Assembly: GCA_020851975.1 (NCBI GenBank)
Contig: JADZBS010000092.1
Location: 1 to 41,361, forward strand
Length of the DNA: 41,361 nt
Direction: 5' to 3'
From: Gammaproteobacteria bacterium
GTDB taxonomy: Bacteria > Pseudomonadota > Gammaproteobacteria > Steroidobacterales > GCA-2729495
Position 1 is the stretch's first letter, and each line of letters begins with the position of its first letter. Of the stretch, positions 20,546-30,018 are shown piece after piece. Made by a program: the position numbers and the translations under genes. The notes under the pieces were generated by a model. The model had not been told where the DNA came from, made no database searches, and saw only the letters and a list, made by a program, of their open reading frames with translations.

Positions 20546-20992
20546 ATGACGCTGGTCAACTGGAGCCCGTTTCGCGAATTCGAGGACATCTTCGACCGTT
20601 ACAACCGACTGTTCAGCCGCTCGGTCCCGGCCGCCGGCCAGGGCGAGGCCGCCGGGGTGGTGCAGTGGCGCCCGGCCGCCAACATCTCGGAGACGAAGGA
20701 CGAGTACCTGATCAAGGCCGAGTTGCCCGAGGTCGAGAAGAAGGACGTCGAGGTCACGGTGCACGACGGCGTGATCACGATCCGCGGCGAGCGGCGCTTC
20801 GAGCGCACGGATGACAGCGAGAAGCAGCACCGCGTGGAATCGTTCTACGGGACCTTCGCCCGCAGCTTCTCGCTGCCGGCCGATGCCGACGAGGGCAGGA
20901 TCCACGCCGAGTCGAAGGATGGCGTGCTGAAGGTGCGCATCCCGAAGACGCAGGTTGCGAAGCCGAAGGCCATCGAGATCCAGGTCAAGTGA
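20546..20992 (+). CDS. Small heat-shock protein, Hsp20 family
   Basis: A 148-residue ATP-independent holdase chaperone. The alpha-crystallin domain covers about residues 40-140: PAANISETKDEYLIKAELP, VTIRGERRFE-type strands, FYGTFARSFSLP and AESKDGVLKVRIPK, ending with IEIQVK. The start at 20546 has AGAGGAG eight bases upstream. The N-terminus MTLVNWSPFREFEDIFDR is typical of class-A-like bacterial members. The I-x-I/V tail needed for oligomer assembly is reduced (LKVRIPK, IEIQ). No sigma-32 promoter was recognised. Confidence 0.93.
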   Translation: MTLVNWSPFREFEDIFDRYNRLFSRSVPAAGQGEAAGVVQWRPAANISETKDEYLIKAELPEVEKKDVEVTVHDGVITIRGERRFERTDDSEKQHRVESFYGTFARSFSLPADADEGRIHAESKDGVLKVRIPKTQVAKPKAIEIQVK

Positions 20993-20997
20993 CCTCC

Positions 20998-21028
20998 GGC
21001 GGGGACAGGCCCTCAGCCTGTCCCCGCC
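20998..21028. terminator. Perfect 13-bp hairpin after hsp20
   Basis: Arms at 20998-21010 and 21016-21028 (GGCGGGGACAGGC and its complement) enclose the loop CCTCA, six bases after the stop codon. Without a T-run it may serve as an mRNA-stabilising or Rho-linked end, or belong to the repeat field that follows. Confidence 0.45.
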
Positions 21029-21050
21029 CGCACCCTGCAGGAGCGACGCT

Positions 21051-21216
21051 GTAGGAGCGACGCCAGTCGCGAATATTTTTGTCGCGAATATTCGAATTCT
21101 CTCCCGCCACCCCCCGCCTCGCCGGCCGGACACCCGCCGGCGGGACGCTCCCTGCGGGCATCCTGCCCTCCGGTCGCTCGGGTCTCGCGGGCGCTCGGCA
21201 TCCTGCCTCGCTGGCT
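21051..21216. repeat. 167-bp direct repeat, copy 1 (begins with a REP element)
   Basis: Nearly identical to 21298-21465; the differences seen are a few bases in the AT-rich spacer after the REP (near 21074), one base in the C-run near 21109 and one substitution near 21172. It opens with a 22-bp REP unit (GTAGGAGCGACGCC then AGTCGCGA) followed by GCGAATATTCGAATTCTC. Confidence 0.9.
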
Positions 21217-21297
21217 CGACACGCCCGCCACCGGGCGCCCGGCCGGCGAGGCTGCCGACTGCGCCGACGTGCAGGAGCACTCTGTAGGAGCGACGCC

Positions 21298-21465
21298 GTA
21301 GGAGCGACGCCAGTCGCGAATATCCTTCTTCGCGAATATTCGAATTCTCTCCCGCCATCCCCCCGCCTCGCCGGCCGGACACCCGCCGGCGGGACGCTCC
21401 CTGCGGGCATCCTGCCCTCCGCTCGCTCGGGTCTCGCGGGCGCTCGGCATCCTGCCTCGCTGGCT
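21298..21465. repeat. 167-bp direct repeat, copy 2
   Basis: Second copy of the unit at 21051-21216, separated from it by 81 bases. It also starts with the REP unit at 21298-21319 and ends in CCTCGCTGGCT. Confidence 0.9.
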
Positions 21466-21566
21466 GCGCACGCCCGGCGACCGGGCCCTGACGGCAGCCC
21501 GGGGAGGGGGCGCGGGGAGAATCGCGGGGAGAGAAGAGGTCGCGAAGAGAAGATTTGCGAAAAGAA

Positions 21567-21614
21567 TCGCGACTGGCGTCGCTCCTACACGTCGCTCCTA
21601 CACGTCGCTCCTAC
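21567..21614. repeat. Inverted REP copy with two partial copies
   Basis: A full REP unit in the opposite orientation lies at 21567-21588 (core GCGAC-TGGC-GTCGC hairpin), followed by two copies of ACGTCGCTCCTAC at 21589-21601 and 21602-21614. Opposed REP units around a duplicated block are typical of BIME-like clusters. Confidence 0.85.
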
Positions 21615-21786
21615 GGGAAAGGGCGGGCGTGTTGACGTAACGCGGCGCTGCCGTTCACCGAATCCGGGTGACATATCAACGCGGGGGCAAAAGGTGACGT
21701 GATTCACCGAGACGCCGCCGGACTGCGTCTAAGGTGGACATCGAGTCGAGATCGCCAACGGCCAGGACGGCCGAGGTGCGCGGTCG

Positions 21787-22317: not shown

Positions 22318-22893
22318 TCAGCGCTGCGCCGCGCGTTCGAGTATCCAGGGCAGGTGCTGGCTGGTGATCTCGGCCCACTCCAGGCGCAACCACGGCGTGA
22401 AGCGTGCGGGGTCGGCGGCTATCTCGGCGGTGAGCGCCGCAGGCGCGACGTAGCGCCAGTCGGCGATCTCCGTCGCGTTGGCTGCTGGCGGACCGCTGTC
22501 GAAACCCGCGAAGACCCAGCACAGCTCGTGCTCGGCCCCGATATTGCCGTAGCGGGCCTCGTACTCGAACTTGTAGAGGAAGGCGAGTTCGGCGCCGAGG
22601 GCGAGTTCCTCGTGCAGGCGGCGGCTGGCCGCGGCTTCGACAGCCTCGCCGCGACGCGGATGGCTGCAGCAACTGTTCGACCAGGCGAGCGGCCAGAGCG
22701 GCTTCTGCGCGCTGCGTTGCTGCAGGAGCAGCTGGCCGCGATCGTCGAACAGGAAAATGGAGAACGCCCGGTGCAGCACGCCGCGGCCGCGATGGCAATC
22801 CTCCTTGCTCATGAATCCCGTCTCGCGGTCCTCGTGGTCCACGAGGATCAGCAGGTCGGCCGGGTTGTTGGCCGGGGCGCCGAGCGCGTTCAC
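22318..22893 (-). CDS. idi: Isopentenyl-diphosphate delta-isomerase, type I
   Basis: A 191-residue Nudix-fold enzyme interconverting isopentenyl and dimethylallyl diphosphate. Key residues are in place: His34 and His41 for metal, the catalytic cysteine in SNSCCSHPRRGE (75-78), the Nudix RRLHEEL and the Glu pair in GAEHELCWVF (121 and 123). The GTG start at 22893 overlaps the stop of the HMG-CoA reductase-mevalonate kinase gene (GTGA), so the two are translationally coupled. This coupling places the isomerase in a mevalonate context, where it is essential because that route yields only IPP. Confidence 0.95.
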   Translation of the reverse strand: MNALGAPANNPADLLILVDHEDRETGFMSKEDCHRGRGVLHRAFSIFLFDDRGQLLLQQRSAQKPLWPLAWSNSCCSHPRRGEAVEAAASRRLHEELALGAELAFLYKFEYEARYGNIGAEHELCWVFAGFDSGPPAANATEIADWRYVAPAALTAEIAADPARFTPWLRLEWAEITSQHLPWILERAAQR

Positions 22894-25148
22894 GGCTCGC
22901 CGCCGGCGGTGAAGGCGATCGCGCGGTAGCCGTGCCGCTCGATGGCCTGCTGCACGCCGGTGGCATCGCCGTCGCAGAGTGCGACGATGGCACCGCCGCC
23001 ACCGCCGCCGGTGAGCTTGGCACCGAGCGCACCGGCTCCACGGGCAATGCCGATCAGCCGCTCGAGTTCGGGCGTGGACACCTGCAGCGCATTGAGCAGG
23101 CCCTGGCAGATGTTCATGAGGTCGCCGAGCGTTGCCACGTCGTTGTCCTGCAGGGCGGCCACCGCCTGCAGCACCAGCGCGTCGATGTCGTCGAAGATCT
23201 TCTCGTACAGCCGCGGGTTGCGCTCGCGTGCCTCGCGCACATTGCCCACGGTGCGCGCCGTGAGCCCTTCCTCGCGCGTCATGGCGACCACCAGGTGCAG
23301 CGGCCGGGTGATGTTGAGCGGTTCGGCCAGCGGCGGCGTGCCGCGGCGGTAGACGAGCGGCCGGCCGTAGGTCGCCAGCGTGTTGTCGATGCCGCTCGGG
23401 CTGCCGTGGGCGATTTCCTCGGAGAGCCAGGCGAGCTCGTTCACCTGCTCGTCGCGCAGTTGCAGGCCGAAGTGGCGGTCCAGCGCGCGGATGATGGCGA
23501 CCGCGATGGCTGCCGAACCGCCGAGCCCCATGCCGCGGGGCACATCGGGGAAGACCTCGATGCGCAGATCGCGATCGGTGAGACCGAGCCGGTCGAGGAT
23601 CACGCCCGCGGCGCACTCGAAGGAGCGGCGCTGCTCGGGCGGCTTGGCGAGCTGGTACTCGACACCCCAGCGCGGGATGAGCAACTCGACACCGCGTCCG
23701 GCATCCTCGACCACGGCGCGCGTGGTCAGCGGCAGTGGCACCGCGATGGCGTGGCGGCCGTAGACCACGGCGTGTTCGCCGAGCAGGATCGCCTTGCCCC
23801 AGCCCACGCCGAGTTCGGCGTCCGCCCCGGCCCTGGCGACGGTGGCCGGCGCGCCCTGGCGTTCGCCGCGCACCTGCTCGAGCAGCTCCTGCGCCTTCCA
23901 GACCTTGATCTCGCCGTCCCGCAGGACGCGTTCGAGCACCTCGTCGAAGAGTTCCGGCGGTGTGCCGGCGGCCTTGACCACGCTGCGCGCATGCAGCGTC
24001 ATGTGGCCGGTCTGGATGCCTTCGGTGGCGAGCGCGCGCAGGGCGGCGAAATTCTGCGCCAGGCCGACCGCGGCCATGACCTCGGCCAGTTCCTGCGCCG
24101 TCTTCGCGCCGAGCAGGCGCATGTTCATGGCCACGCCCGGGTTGGATTCGAGCGGTCCGCCGACGATGCCGACCTTCATCGGCATCTCCAGGCGCCCGCG
24201 CAGGTTGCCCTGGTCGTCCTTCCACCACTGCGACAGCGAGCTGTAGCGGCCCTGGCGCGCCGCGTAGGCGTGGGCGCCGGCCTCGATCGCGCGCCAGTCG
24301 TTGCCGGTGGCGAGCGCGACGGCATCGACACCGTTCATGATGCCCTTGTTGTGTGTGGCCGCGCGGTAGGGGTCGACGATGGCGAAGTCCGAGGCGACGA
24401 TGATGCCGTCGCGCACGCGCTCGCCGGCATAGCCCTTGCCGGCCAGCGCCGCCGGCGGCAGCGTGACTTCGGCGCGGGCCAGCGCCCGGTCGGCGAGGTT
24501 GGAGAGGATGCGCAGGAAGACCTGGCCTTCGGTGAGCGACTCCACCAGAGAGGCCACGCCCTCGCACATGCCGTTGACGAGGTTGGCGCCCATGGCATCG
24601 CGGGTGTCCACCAGCAGGTGCAGTACCAGCATCTCGCCTTCGAGCGTGGTCATCGGATAGCTGCGTACTTCGATGTCCACCGCACCGCCGCCGCGCGCCA
24701 CCATGCGCGGGTGGAAGCTGTTGGCGAGGTCGAGGATTTCCTGGCGGTGCGCGGTGAGCGCGCTCATCGCCCGCGCCATGTCGGGCACGTCGATCACCTG
24801 GATCTGCCCGATCAGGATCGGCGGTGAGGCAGTGGCGCCGAAGCCGCCGCAGTTGCGGGCAACCTTGGCTGCGGCGCTCAGGGCGGCGACGATCGAGGGT
24901 TCCTCGACCACCAGCGGCACCACGTAGTCGCGGCCATTGATGAGGAAGTTCAGGCCGAGCCCGATCGGCATGCCGAGCACGCCGATGACGTTCTCGATCA
25001 TCTTGTCGGCGGCGTTGACGTCGAGCGTGGCCTCGCCGCGGGTGAGGCGTGCGAGATCCGCATCCGAGAGCAGGCCGCGCTCGTGCACGGCGCGCACACG
25101 GTCGGCCGGCGACATGCGGTAGAAGTGCGGGATGCGGGAGCGGGTCAC
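22890..25148 (-). CDS. Fused class II HMG-CoA reductase / mevalonate kinase
   Basis: A 752-residue two-domain protein. Residues 1-430 are a class II (bacterial) HMG-CoA reductase: catalytic Glu in VVEEPSIVAA (about 82-83), DTRDAMGANLVNGM (181-194), catalytic Lys in ATHNKGIMNG (about 268) and His in QTGHMTLH (about 382). A linker of roughly 18 residues follows (GERQGAPATVARAG region, about 428-446). Residues 448-752 are a GHMP-type mevalonate kinase: GWGKAILLGEHAVVYG (449-464), PRGMGLGGSAAIAVA (537-551) and KLTGGGGGGA (711-720). Thus HMG-CoA to mevalonate to 5-phosphomevalonate could occur on one chain. The GTG start at 25148 has GGAGA ten bases upstream and fits the usual SRIPHFYRMSPADR beginning. 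The frame is continuous across the junction near 23.80-23.86 kb. Confidence 0.93.
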   Translation of the reverse strand: MTRSRIPHFYRMSPADRVRAVHERGLLSDADLARLTRGEATLDVNAADKMIENVIGVLGMPIGLGLNFLINGRDYVVPLVVEEPSIVAALSAAAKVARNCGGFGATASPPILIGQIQVIDVPDMARAMSALTAHRQEILDLANSFHPRMVARGGGAVDIEVRSYPMTTLEGEMLVLHLLVDTRDAMGANLVNGMCEGVASLVESLTEGQVFLRILSNLADRALARAEVTLPPAALAGKGYAGERVRDGIIVASDFAIVDPYRAATHNKGIMNGVDAVALATGNDWRAIEAGAHAYAARQGRYSSLSQWWKDDQGNLRGRLEMPMKVGIVGGPLESNPGVAMNMRLLGAKTAQELAEVMAAVGLAQNFAALRALATEGIQTGHMTLHARSVVKAAGTPPELFDEVLERVLRDGEIKVWKAQELLEQVRGERQGAPATVARAGADAELGVGWGKAILLGEHAVVYGRHAIAVPLPLTTRAVVEDAGRGVELLIPRWGVEYQLAKPPEQRRSFECAAGVILDRLGLTDRDLRIEVFPDVPRGMGLGGSAAIAVAIIRALDRHFGLQLRDEQVNELAWLSEEIAHGSPSGIDNTLATYGRPLVYRRGTPPLAEPLNITRPLHLVVAMTREEGLTARTVGNVREARERNPRLYEKIFDDIDALVLQAVAALQDNDVATLGDLMNICQGLLNALQVSTPELERLIGIARGAGALGAKLTGGGGGGAIVALCDGDATGVQQAIERHGYRAIAFTAGGEP

Positions 25149-25359: not shown

Positions 25360-27426
25360 ATGCGTCGCGTCTGGTTCGTTCTCGCCACTCTCGTCTTGTG
25401 TCAGTCCGTGCGGGCCGACGAGGGCATGTGGACCTTCGACAACTTTCCGCGCGACCGGCTGAAGCAGGCGTACGGAGTCGATATCGGCCAGCCCTGGCTC
25501 GACCGCCTGCGTCTGGCCACGGTGCGCCTGGAGGGCGGCTGCACGGGGTCGCTCGTCTCGCCGGCGGGCCTGGTACTCACCAATCACCACTGCGTGGCCG
25601 ACTGCGTAAGCCGGCTGTCGAGCGCAGCCCGCAACGTGCAGGCGGCCGGCTTCATCGCCCGCACCCGGGCGGAGGAGGAGCGCTGCGCGGCCGAGCAGGC
25701 CTCGGTGCTGGTGGCCGTCGAGGACGTGACGGCACAGGTGTCGGCAGCCATCGGGACCCGGTCCGGGGCGGAGGCGAACCAGGCGCGCAAGGCGGTGCTG
25801 ACGCAGCTCGAGACGGCGTGCGAGGCGCGTCATCGCAGCGCGACGGAATATTATTCCTGCGAAGCGGTGACGCTCTACGGCGGTGGCCAGTACTTCATCC
25901 ATCGCTACCGGCGCTACGAGGACGTGCGCCTGGCGTTCGCGCCGGAAACGGACATCGCCTTCTTCGGCGGCGACATCGACAACTTCCAGTTCCCGCGCTG
26001 GAACCTCGACTTTGCGCTGCTGCGGGTGTATGTCGACGGCGCCCCGGCCGTGACGCCCGGGCACCTGCGCTGGCGCCGCGGCGGTGCTGCGGCCGGAGAG
26101 CCCGTGTTCGTCGCCGGTCACCCCGGCAGCACCGAGCGGCTGAAGACCGTCGCGCAACTGCGCTTCGAGCGCGACGTGCGCCTGGCCCGCTGGCTGCTGC
26201 GCGCTGCCGAGCTGCGCGGGCGCTACCTCGAGTTTGCCGCCCGCGGCGAGGAGTTTGCGCGCATCGCGCAGGAGCCGCTGTTCGGGCTGGAGAATGTCTT
26301 CAAGGTGCGCCGCAACCAGATGCGGGTGCTGCTCGACGAGGCGTTCCTCGGCCAGCACGAGCGCGAGGAACGCGCATTGCGCCAGGCGGTGGCGGCCGAC
26401 GCCCGCCTGCGGCCATGGGCGGGCGCCTGGGCCGACATCGAACAGGCGCTCGCCGCCTGGCGTGTCATCTTCGACCGGCACCTGTACCTGGAGCAGGGCG
26501 TGGCGCTGCAGGGCGAACTCGCCGGCTACGCGCGGGTGCTGGTACGCGCCGCCGGCGAGCGCGAGAAGCCGAACGAAGCGCGCCAGCGCGAGTACACGGA
26601 GGCGGCCTTGCCGCTGCTGCAACAGCAGCTGCTCGCACCGGCGCCGGTCTACTCCGAGCTCGAGATCCTGCGCCTCGCCTTTTCCCTCGAGAAGTTCGTC
26701 GAGACGCTCGGTGTCGACGACCCGGCCGTGCGCCTGGCGCTTGGCCGCGAGGCGCCACGGGCGCTCGCCACGCGCCTGGTGCGCGAGACGAAGCTCGGCG
26801 ACCCGGCGTTCCGCACGCGGCTGTGGGACGGCGGGCGGGCGGCACTCGAGCAGTCCGGCGATCCGCTGATCGCGCTCGTGCTGCGCCTGGAGCCCGAGGC
26901 GCTGCGTCTGCGCCAGCGCTACGATGACGAGATCGAGGCGCCGCTCGCGACGGCCGGGGAACAGCTCGCCCGCGCACGCTTCGCCGTGAAAGGCAAGGGC
27001 ACGTATCCGGATGCGACCTTCACGCTGCGCCTGACCTACGGGTCGGTGAAAGGCTGGCGCGAGGGCGAACGCGAGATCACGCCCTTCACCACCATGGAAG
27101 GACTGTATGCGCGGGCCACCGGCCAGGCGCCGTTCCGGCTGCCGCCGCGCTGGGTGCAGGCCCAGCAGCGCATCAATCTCGAGACCCGCTTCAACTTCGC
27201 CGCCGACACCGACATCACGGGTGGCAACTCGGGCAGCCCGGTCGTCGATGCAGCCGGGCGCCTGGTCGGGCTGATCTTCGACGGCAACATCCACTCGATC
27301 GGCGGGGACTACGGCTTCGATCCCGTCCTCAACCGCTCGGTTGCCGTGCACCCGGCGGCAATCATGCTGGCGCTCGGCGAGGTGTACCGCGCCGAGCCGC
27401 TGCTGCGCGAGATGGTCGTCGAGTAG
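25360..27426 (+). CDS. S46 family dipeptidyl-peptidase (DPP7-like)
   Basis: A 688-residue exported exopeptidase with chymotrypsin fold, releasing dipeptides from the N-terminus of peptides in the periplasm. Signal peptide residues 1-19. The catalytic His is in LTNHHCV (76-77), Asp lies in the block IDNFQFPRWNLDFALLR and Ser624 is in GGNSGSPVV. In this family the residue after FD in the block LIFDGN sets P1 preference; Gly here, as in DPP7, suggests hydrophobic P1 rather than the acidic P1 of DPP11, which has Arg. The start at 25360 is the first ATG fitting a signal peptide. It is divergent from the mevalonate genes (211 bases between), with a TATATT box at 25242. Confidence 0.92.
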   Translation: MRRVWFVLATLVLCQSVRADEGMWTFDNFPRDRLKQAYGVDIGQPWLDRLRLATVRLEGGCTGSLVSPAGLVLTNHHCVADCVSRLSSAARNVQAAGFIARTRAEEERCAAEQASVLVAVEDVTAQVSAAIGTRSGAEANQARKAVLTQLETACEARHRSATEYYSCEAVTLYGGGQYFIHRYRRYEDVRLAFAPETDIAFFGGDIDNFQFPRWNLDFALLRVYVDGAPAVTPGHLRWRRGGAAAGEPVFVAGHPGSTERLKTVAQLRFERDVRLARWLLRAAELRGRYLEFAARGEEFARIAQEPLFGLENVFKVRRNQMRVLLDEAFLGQHEREERALRQAVAADARLRPWAGAWADIEQALAAWRVIFDRHLYLEQGVALQGELAGYARVLVRAAGEREKPNEARQREYTEAALPLLQQQLLAPAPVYSELEILRLAFSLEKFVETLGVDDPAVRLALGREAPRALATRLVRETKLGDPAFRTRLWDGGRAALEQSGDPLIALVLRLEPEALRLRQRYDDEIEAPLATAGEQLARARFAVKGKGTYPDATFTLRLTYGSVKGWREGEREITPFTTMEGLYARATGQAPFRLPPRWVQAQQRINLETRFNFAADTDITGGNSGSPVVDAAGRLVGLIFDGNIHSIGGDYGFDPVLNRSVAVHPAAIMLALGEVYRAEPLLREMVVE

Positions 27427-29388: not shown

Positions 29389-30018
29389 ATGTTGAAGAAA
29401 TATCTTCTGGGTGGCCTGCTTCTCGCCACCGCGACCACCGCGCAGGCTGAAACGGTCACGGCAAGGGTGGTGGCCGACGATCACTACAAGATTTTCATTG
29501 GGGATGCCAACGGCACGTCACTGACCGAAGTGGCGTCCTCCGGGAGCAATCTCTGGTCCAGCCAGGGCATGCCCGTCAATTTCGACATCAGTGTCGGGCA
29601 ATACCTGTACGTCGCCGCATGGGATAGCGCTTCTTACGGGCCGCCACACGCATGGATCGGCGAGTTCGACATCGCGGGCATCAGGCTCTACTCGAACACG
29701 ACCGACTGGGTGGGAAAGAACAACGGCACCATCAAGGACCCGTCCGTGAGCGACGCCGAAGCGCTGGCGAACTCGGCCACCGCGTGGTCGGCGCTCCTGG
29801 CGAGCATGGCCAACGGATCGTCACCTTACGGCACCTTGATCGGCGGTTCTCCGGCGAGCTTCGTATGGACCGACGTCTTTGGTGGAGCCAGCGCCAGCGA
29901 AGGCGGCTATGCCCTGTTCAGAACGGCAAATGCCGTGGTGACGCCCGTGCCCGGTGCACTGCCTCTCCTGCTGTCCGGCATGGGCCTCATGGCTTTGAGG
30001 TCTCGACGACGGAAATGA
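29389..30018 (+). CDS. PEP-CTERM-type surface protein (VPVPGALPLL variant)
   Basis: A 209-residue exported protein. Signal peptide residues 1-20 (LLATATTAQA cleavage). The C-terminus has VPVPGALPLLLSGMGLMAL followed by RSRRRK, a PEP-CTERM-like sorting tail. The body is beta-rich with aromatic residues (VGQYLYVAAWD, AWIGEFDI) and contains no recognised domain and no cysteine. It is single, convergent with modC. No exosortase is in the window. The ribosome-binding site is weak and A-rich (ACGAGAAAAAGTC). Confidence 0.83.
   Translation: MLKKYLLGGLLLATATTAQAETVTARVVADDHYKIFIGDANGTSLTEVASSGSNLWSSQGMPVNFDISVGQYLYVAAWDSASYGPPHAWIGEFDIAGIRLYSNTTDWVGKNNGTIKDPSVSDAEALANSATAWSALLASMANGSSPYGTLIGGSPASFVWTDVFGGASASEGGYALFRTANAVVTPVPGALPLLLSGMGLMALRSRRRK

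Follow-up and report, generated by a model that had tools for sequence, protein, structure and literature searches.

MvaE of enterococci is a fusion of thiolase and HMG-CoA reductase, and the E. faecalis PDB entry 7m1z, matched here by sequence, bears a thiolase name. In the MEP pathway, IspDF is a fusion as well (PMC13001223). The portion covered here of a survey of isoprenoid pathways in bacteria, dated 2026, uses the word 'fusion' once, for IspDF, and describes HMG-CoA reductase as the step at which the mevalonate pathway is usually controlled (PMC13001223). The sequence-only reading of the DNA studied here knew of no characterised fusion of HMG-CoA reductase with mevalonate kinase. This agrees with the open-access literature, in which we found no description of one; a search of open-access papers cannot settle the point, and an earlier notice is possible. 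The locus presented below carries such a fusion, a new and widespread domain architecture of known enzymes.

The window, that is, the whole stretch of 41,361 nucleotides that was analysed, encodes a class II HMG-CoA reductase followed in one open frame by a mevalonate kinase (Table 1). As the best explanation of the whole, we regard the product as a bifunctional biosynthetic HMG-CoA reductase-mevalonate kinase, with a probability of about 0.88, both enzyme activities being putative and read from the sequence. A one-frame fusion of this kind had been proposed from the letters alone and was borne out with exact coordinates, both halves scoring above the cut-offs of equivalog models; the linker, expected near 23.80-23.86 kb, was found very close to that place. 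Pfam matches the protein with HMG-CoA_red (1e-106), GHMP_kinases_N (5.3e-17) and GHMP_kinases_C (6.9e-15), while a regular-expression motif scan of the window gave strand and frame only. That the observation is beyond chance is confirmed by scores far above cut-offs, by the presence of the junction in independent assemblies and by low dN/dS in both halves.

Table 1. Position of the fused gene, its parts and the adjoining idi gene in the window
Feature	Coordinates	Strand	Basis
Fused class II HMG-CoA reductase + mevalonate kinase gene, 752 aa + stop	22890..25148	-	One open frame; Pfam and NCBIfam matches
Reductase half, residues 1-425 (E83, K268, D284, H382)	23874..25148	-	TIGR00532, 1qax alignment, Foldseek
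Linker, residues 426-446	23811..23873	-	Variable sequence and length, dN/dS, low pLDDT
Mevalonate kinase half, residues 447-752 (K452, S545, E577, D588, GGGG 716-719)	22893..23810	-	TIGR00549, PDB alignment, Foldseek
idi, type I isopentenyl-diphosphate isomerase, 191 aa	22318..22893	-	NF002995 and TIGR02150 above cut-offs

The frame runs from a GTG at 25148 to a TGA at 22890-22892 on the minus strand. We take 25148 as the likely start because a relative (L010) has few in-frame residues ahead of the aligned start and because GGAGAG lies 8 nt before this GTG. On the same grounds, an alternative in-frame GTG upstream at 25388, which would give a protein of 832 aa, is unlikely. The GTG start of idi overlaps the TGA of the fused gene by 4 bp (GTGA), and the idi product scores 164.5 bits with NF002995 (cut-off 127) and 148.5 bits with TIGR02150 (cut-off 105.8). 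Upstream of the fused gene lies a divergent peptidase S46 gene. The source genome contains a single match to the fused protein.

Elsewhere in the window, the intergenic region 20950-21650 contains direct repeats about 248 nt apart (e.g. 21110-21227 and 21359-21476, which are 97% alike), and each of its strands carries a REP-like motif, TGTAGGAGCGACGCCAGTCGCGA. A small secreted-looking protein without a Pfam match is encoded at 29389-30018 on the plus strand. Its C-terminal tail resembles a PEP-CTERM sorting signal, and a similar tail is found on another protein of the source genome (L175, 6853-7623).

The fusion is conserved in several bacterial phyla. Of 60 near genomes (the source genome counted), 48 have a match that reads through the junction in one open frame; full-length matches outside the source genome show 51-89% identity, and three of the assemblies with an open junction consist of a single contig (G006, G007, G013). 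Among the best 80 of 586 loci from named genomes, 67 are fused in one frame; these 80 were ranked by likeness to the fused query, and 67/80 is not a frequency. The supposition that the homologues might all be separate genes is thus wrong. The 67 fused loci come from Pseudomonadota (44), Calditrichota (8), Actinomycetota (6), Acidobacteriota (3), Planctomycetota (2) and Ignavibacteriota (1), with three lacking a ranked phylum, and the 13 unfused loci among the same best 80 of 586 belong to Myxococcota (7), Chloroflexota (4), Bacillota (1) and one labelled archaeon. Dyella, Rhodanobacter, Salinisphaera and Cryobacterium are represented by fused isolates; most other named fused genomes are metagenome-assembled, and their phylum labels were taken as given. 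Among genomes drawn evenly, a match across the open junction is present in 10 of 369 from the class and in 2 of 398 from the phylum, the source genome counted in each. Carriage on plasmids was rejected: a tblastn search of 72,556 plasmid records with the fused protein matched 52 of them, but no record had a single place that took in 80% of the query. One near genome, which has a copy of 78% identity, contains a second, more distant one (G031:C164:14-1444; 55% identity over residues 2-473) that may be contamination.

All fused proteins fall on one side of a branch both in a kinase tree of 46 fused and 25 unfused proteins (SH-aLRT 98) and in a reductase tree of 46 fused and 41 unfused proteins, from which L047 was dropped as short (SH-aLRT 100). 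Careful trees return the fused clade at 99/98 for the kinase, with 12 unfused proteins included and those unfused kinases left out that were distant or long (L144, L194-L203, L205 and L207), and at 100/99 for the reductase, with 17 of the 41 unfused reductases used. In none of the four trees, which take 46 of 110 fused loci, does an unfused protein lie inside the fused clade, and no reversal was seen. The nearest unfused reductases are those of Myxococcota, joined to the fused clade at 98/92 in the careful reductase tree; the kinase tree with 25 unfused proteins does not resolve the nearest relative. In four of the seven myxococcal loci (L136, L137, L138, L144) the kinase gene comes after the reductase gene in the same frame. 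One stop codon separates the two, and a plausible start of the kinase lies 3 to about 90 nt beyond it; the remaining three loci show no kinase within the stretch examined. In Oceanobacillus the reductase and kinase genes overlap in different frames. The fusion could have arisen by loss of the stop codon between adjoining genes, which fits the same-frame myxococcal pairs, and we infer that neighbouring genes for reductase and kinase were joined once, the fused gene then spreading between phyla with its operon. The Cryobacterium proteins group with those of Salinisphaera (100/96 in the careful reductase tree and 100 in the kinase tree with 25 unfused proteins); this grouping suggests that the fused gene has moved from one phylum to another.

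Both halves are under purifying selection (dN/dS against six same-genus relatives of 0.12-0.16 for the reductase half and 0.13-0.28 for the kinase half), and the linker gives 0.26-1.20 against the same relatives. By HMM boundaries its length has a median of 20 residues and a range of 0-77 in the 110 fused loci, which include some places represented twice. An AlphaFold2 model built from 60 fused sequences has a mean pLDDT of 83.9 and a pTM of 0.56, with residues 432-443 below a pLDDT of 50, and at this pTM it gives no evidence of a domain interface; among the 42 PDB sequences matched, no chain spans both halves. The model thus predicts two confident domains on a loose tether, their mutual placement not being fixed by it.

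These features bear on why the two enzymes stay joined. The fusion may persist solely because it lets both enzymes be expressed together and in equal amounts, with mevalonate diffusing freely and the tether having no kinetic effect; we give this somewhat less than even odds. It is consistent with a linker sequence that is not conserved and with the lack of a predicted interface, as well as with the four of seven myxococcal loci in which the unfused genes already adjoin in the same frame. Likewise, the adjoining PMK and IDI genes remain separate. However, an operon alone would already meet co-expression, and the lack of any reversal among the 46 fused proteins in four trees also argues against this explanation.

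Mevalonate could instead be channelled, or handled by closeness, so that little of it leaves the protein free, a possibility already raised by the sequence-only reading and one that we consider less likely than not. It draws on the placing of consecutive steps on one chain with a conserved domain order, and on the attachment of the kinase via the C-terminal helices of the reductase, which in P. mevalonii structures form a mobile flap over the active site. A linker of 0 to 77 residues by HMM boundaries and the low confidence at the junction (pTM 0.56) speak against it.

Our preferred picture is one of two functional domains linked flexibly, the benefit being a fixed stoichiometry and mutual closeness. 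The N-terminal class II reductase would convert HMG-CoA to mevalonate and the C-terminal GHMP kinase would convert mevalonate to 5-phosphomevalonate, from which the PMK-like protein and MDC, encoded elsewhere in the genome, and IDI, encoded next door, would lead to IPP and DMAPP. The likeliest gain would be the fixed one-to-one production and the closeness of both enzymes: as soon as the reversible reductase had made its product, the flexibly tethered, ATP-driven kinase would consume it, which implies no dedicated tunnel.

The kinase half scores 247 bits with TIGR00549 (cut-off 163.05). Apart from TIGR00532, which matches the other half, every other NCBIfam model, including those for galactokinase and PMK, scores below its cut-off. 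Solved mevalonate kinases align from about residue 447 onward, and Foldseek matches the predicted structure of this half to M. mazei mevalonate kinase (target TM 0.87-0.88). K452 is present in 110 of 110 fused kinase rows and S545, E577 and D588 each in 108 of 110 (two gaps), and the half bears the glycine run 716-719 (GGGG). Judged by its equivalog model, the GHMP motifs and the catalytic Lys, Ser, Glu and Asp, it is a predicted mevalonate kinase. The GHMP family is functionally broad, with the galactokinase and PMK models scoring lower here, and the half might be degenerate or have another GHMP-kinase function. We consider this improbable: TIGR00549 is above its cut-off, the catalytic residues are kept, dN/dS is low (0.13-0.28) and the structure is nearest to mevalonate kinases in Foldseek.

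The reductase half scores 403.6 bits with TIGR00532 (cut-off 259.95), and its predicted structure matches HMG-CoA reductase chains in Foldseek (target TM 0.92). Its E83, K268, D284 and H382 align with E83, K267, D283 and H381 of P. mevalonii HMG-CoA reductase (1qax), the best PDB match, in which these residues are catalytic. Among the 109 fused reductase rows, K268, D284 and H382 are each present in all and E83 in 107 (two gaps). The reading that the reductase catalytic residues and the GHMP kinase motifs were intact was borne out, for the former by alignment with 1qax and for the latter by the presence of K452, S545, E577, D588 and the glycine run. By its equivalog model and the catalytic Glu, Lys, Asp and His, the half is a predicted class II HMG-CoA reductase. 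Position 146 is His in 106 of the 108 fused rows with a letter there and Asp in P. mevalonii, an NADH enzyme, where it favours NADH; the counterpart in S. pneumoniae HMG-CoA reductase, solved with NADPH, is Tyr. Use of NADPH by the reductase half is likely because His replaces Asp at this position.

In the source genome HMG-CoA reductase, mevalonate kinase, MDC and IDI score above their cut-offs, and PMK-like and HMG-CoA synthase-like proteins below theirs. MDC reaches 256 bits, and its gene overlaps the PMK-like gene on one contig (C112); the PMK-like protein scores 112.1 (cut-off 165.7), its best PDB match being a GHMP protein (3k17). The HMG-CoA synthase-like gene lies on a different contig (C125), and an FPP-synthase-like gene is found beside it and beside the MDC/PMK-like pair. 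This divergent HMG-CoA synthase of 488 aa (L176, 4515-5981) scores 169.8 with TIGR01835 (cut-off 360.35), while PF01154 is above its cut-off and the best PDB match is a bacterial HMG-CoA synthase (5hwp). Similar frames of roughly 490-550 aa occur in many relatives. MEP absence was judged on Dxr and IspH, neither of which gave a match at E up to 0.001 in the source genome; at 92.2% completeness in 150 contigs, absences there are provisional. Since MDC, IDI, PMK-like and HMG-CoA synthase-like genes are present and Dxr and IspH were undetected, the fusion probably serves the only isoprenoid route of this genome.

It is very improbable, in the light of this gene content, that the reductase half serves degradation and oxidises mevalonate with NAD+, as the P. 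mevalonii enzyme does. TIGR00532, its best family, is named 'degradative', and the P. mevalonii enzyme is its best PDB match, but its partner in the chain is the enzyme of the next biosynthetic step, idi is the gene that follows, position 146 is His in place of Asp, and the genome has MDC, PMK-like and HMG-CoA synthase-like genes with Dxr and IspH undetected. With near certainty we reject a sequencing or assembly error that joined two neighbouring genes, which a 150-contig assembly might invite and which had been named as a possible refutation: the junction is open in 48 of the 60 near genomes, single-contig ones (three) among them, and in 67 of the best 80 of 586 named loci.

The near genomes extend this picture. 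Above-cut-off MDC is found in 47 of the 60 and PF01154 in 46, while Dxr and IspH are each found in 9, neither in any of the 48 with the fusion (Fisher p 1.5e-8, kinship ignored). Two genomes (G010, G033) have neither the fusion nor Dxr, and a third (G043) has IspH but neither of these. G010 and G033, from the family of the source genome, have MDC and HMG-CoA synthase with no fusion match and no mevalonate kinase above cut-off; assembly gaps or a different kinase are proposed alternatives for this gap. Among 50 named genomes (48 fused, 2 unfused) a Dxr match is found in 12, all fused and one below cut-off, therefore the fusion does not require MEP loss. Judged by these markers, the fusion accompanies apparent MEP loss in near lineages and not everywhere. 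Four Cryobacterium loci (L119, L121, L128, L131) come from actinobacterial genomes with the fusion and Dxr together, and both isoprenoid routes may coexist there.

Around the 67 named fused loci, a PMK-like gene is found in 60, an IDI-like gene in 50 and an MDC-group gene in 58; the PMK-like gene is the adjoining same-strand neighbour in 57 of the loci and the IDI-like gene in 46. These labels come from a louvain grouping that also took in many antisense ORFs, and we relied only on those groups that had an annotated representative. An HpnH-like gene (adenosyl-hopene transferase; 550 bits for the representative, L077) occurs in nine of the 67, never directly adjoining (L077, L079, L080, L081, L083, L084, L086, L088, L093); any link of the fusion to hopanoid synthesis is weak. 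The wider proposal that an ancient fusion processes mevalonate by closeness or channelling and thereby pulls the reversible reductase forward, travels as a cassette between phyla and in several lineages replaces the MEP pathway as the sole isoprenoid route seems to us doubtful.

What matters in this architecture is that the join has persisted across phyla and between proteins that are no more than about half identical. Natural fused proteins and their matched unfused relatives could be used to test whether tethering consecutive enzymes alters flux or mevalonate release, and the fused gene is a ready-made part for isoprenoid engineering. In pathway surveys, an absent separate kinase gene may mean a fused kinase.

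In comparison with known systems, P. mevalonii MvaA (1qax) has the same fold, length and four catalytic residues as residues 1-425, whereas the fused protein adds a C-terminal kinase and has His, not Asp, at position 146; unlike MvaA, the fused reductase is probably biosynthetic and NADPH-using. Mevalonate kinases (TIGR00549; PDB 2hfs, 6mde) have the three GHMP motifs, the catalytic residues and the fold in common with residues 447-752, which form here the C-terminal half of a two-enzyme chain and not a free enzyme. MvaE, too, unites two enzymes of the mevalonate pathway in one protein, one of them a class II reductase, but it carries at its N terminus the enzyme acting two steps upstream, while the fused protein carries the next-step enzyme at its C terminus; Pfam gives only HMG-CoA_red and GHMP domains in the latter, with no thiolase domain. 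The myxococcal pairs (L136, L137, L138, L144), which have the nearest unfused reductases, share the gene order and frame of the fusion and differ from it by the stop codon between the two genes. Finally, IspDF is also a natural bifunctional enzyme of isoprenoid precursor supply, but it joins non-consecutive steps of the other pathway, whereas the protein described here would join consecutive ones (PMC13001223).
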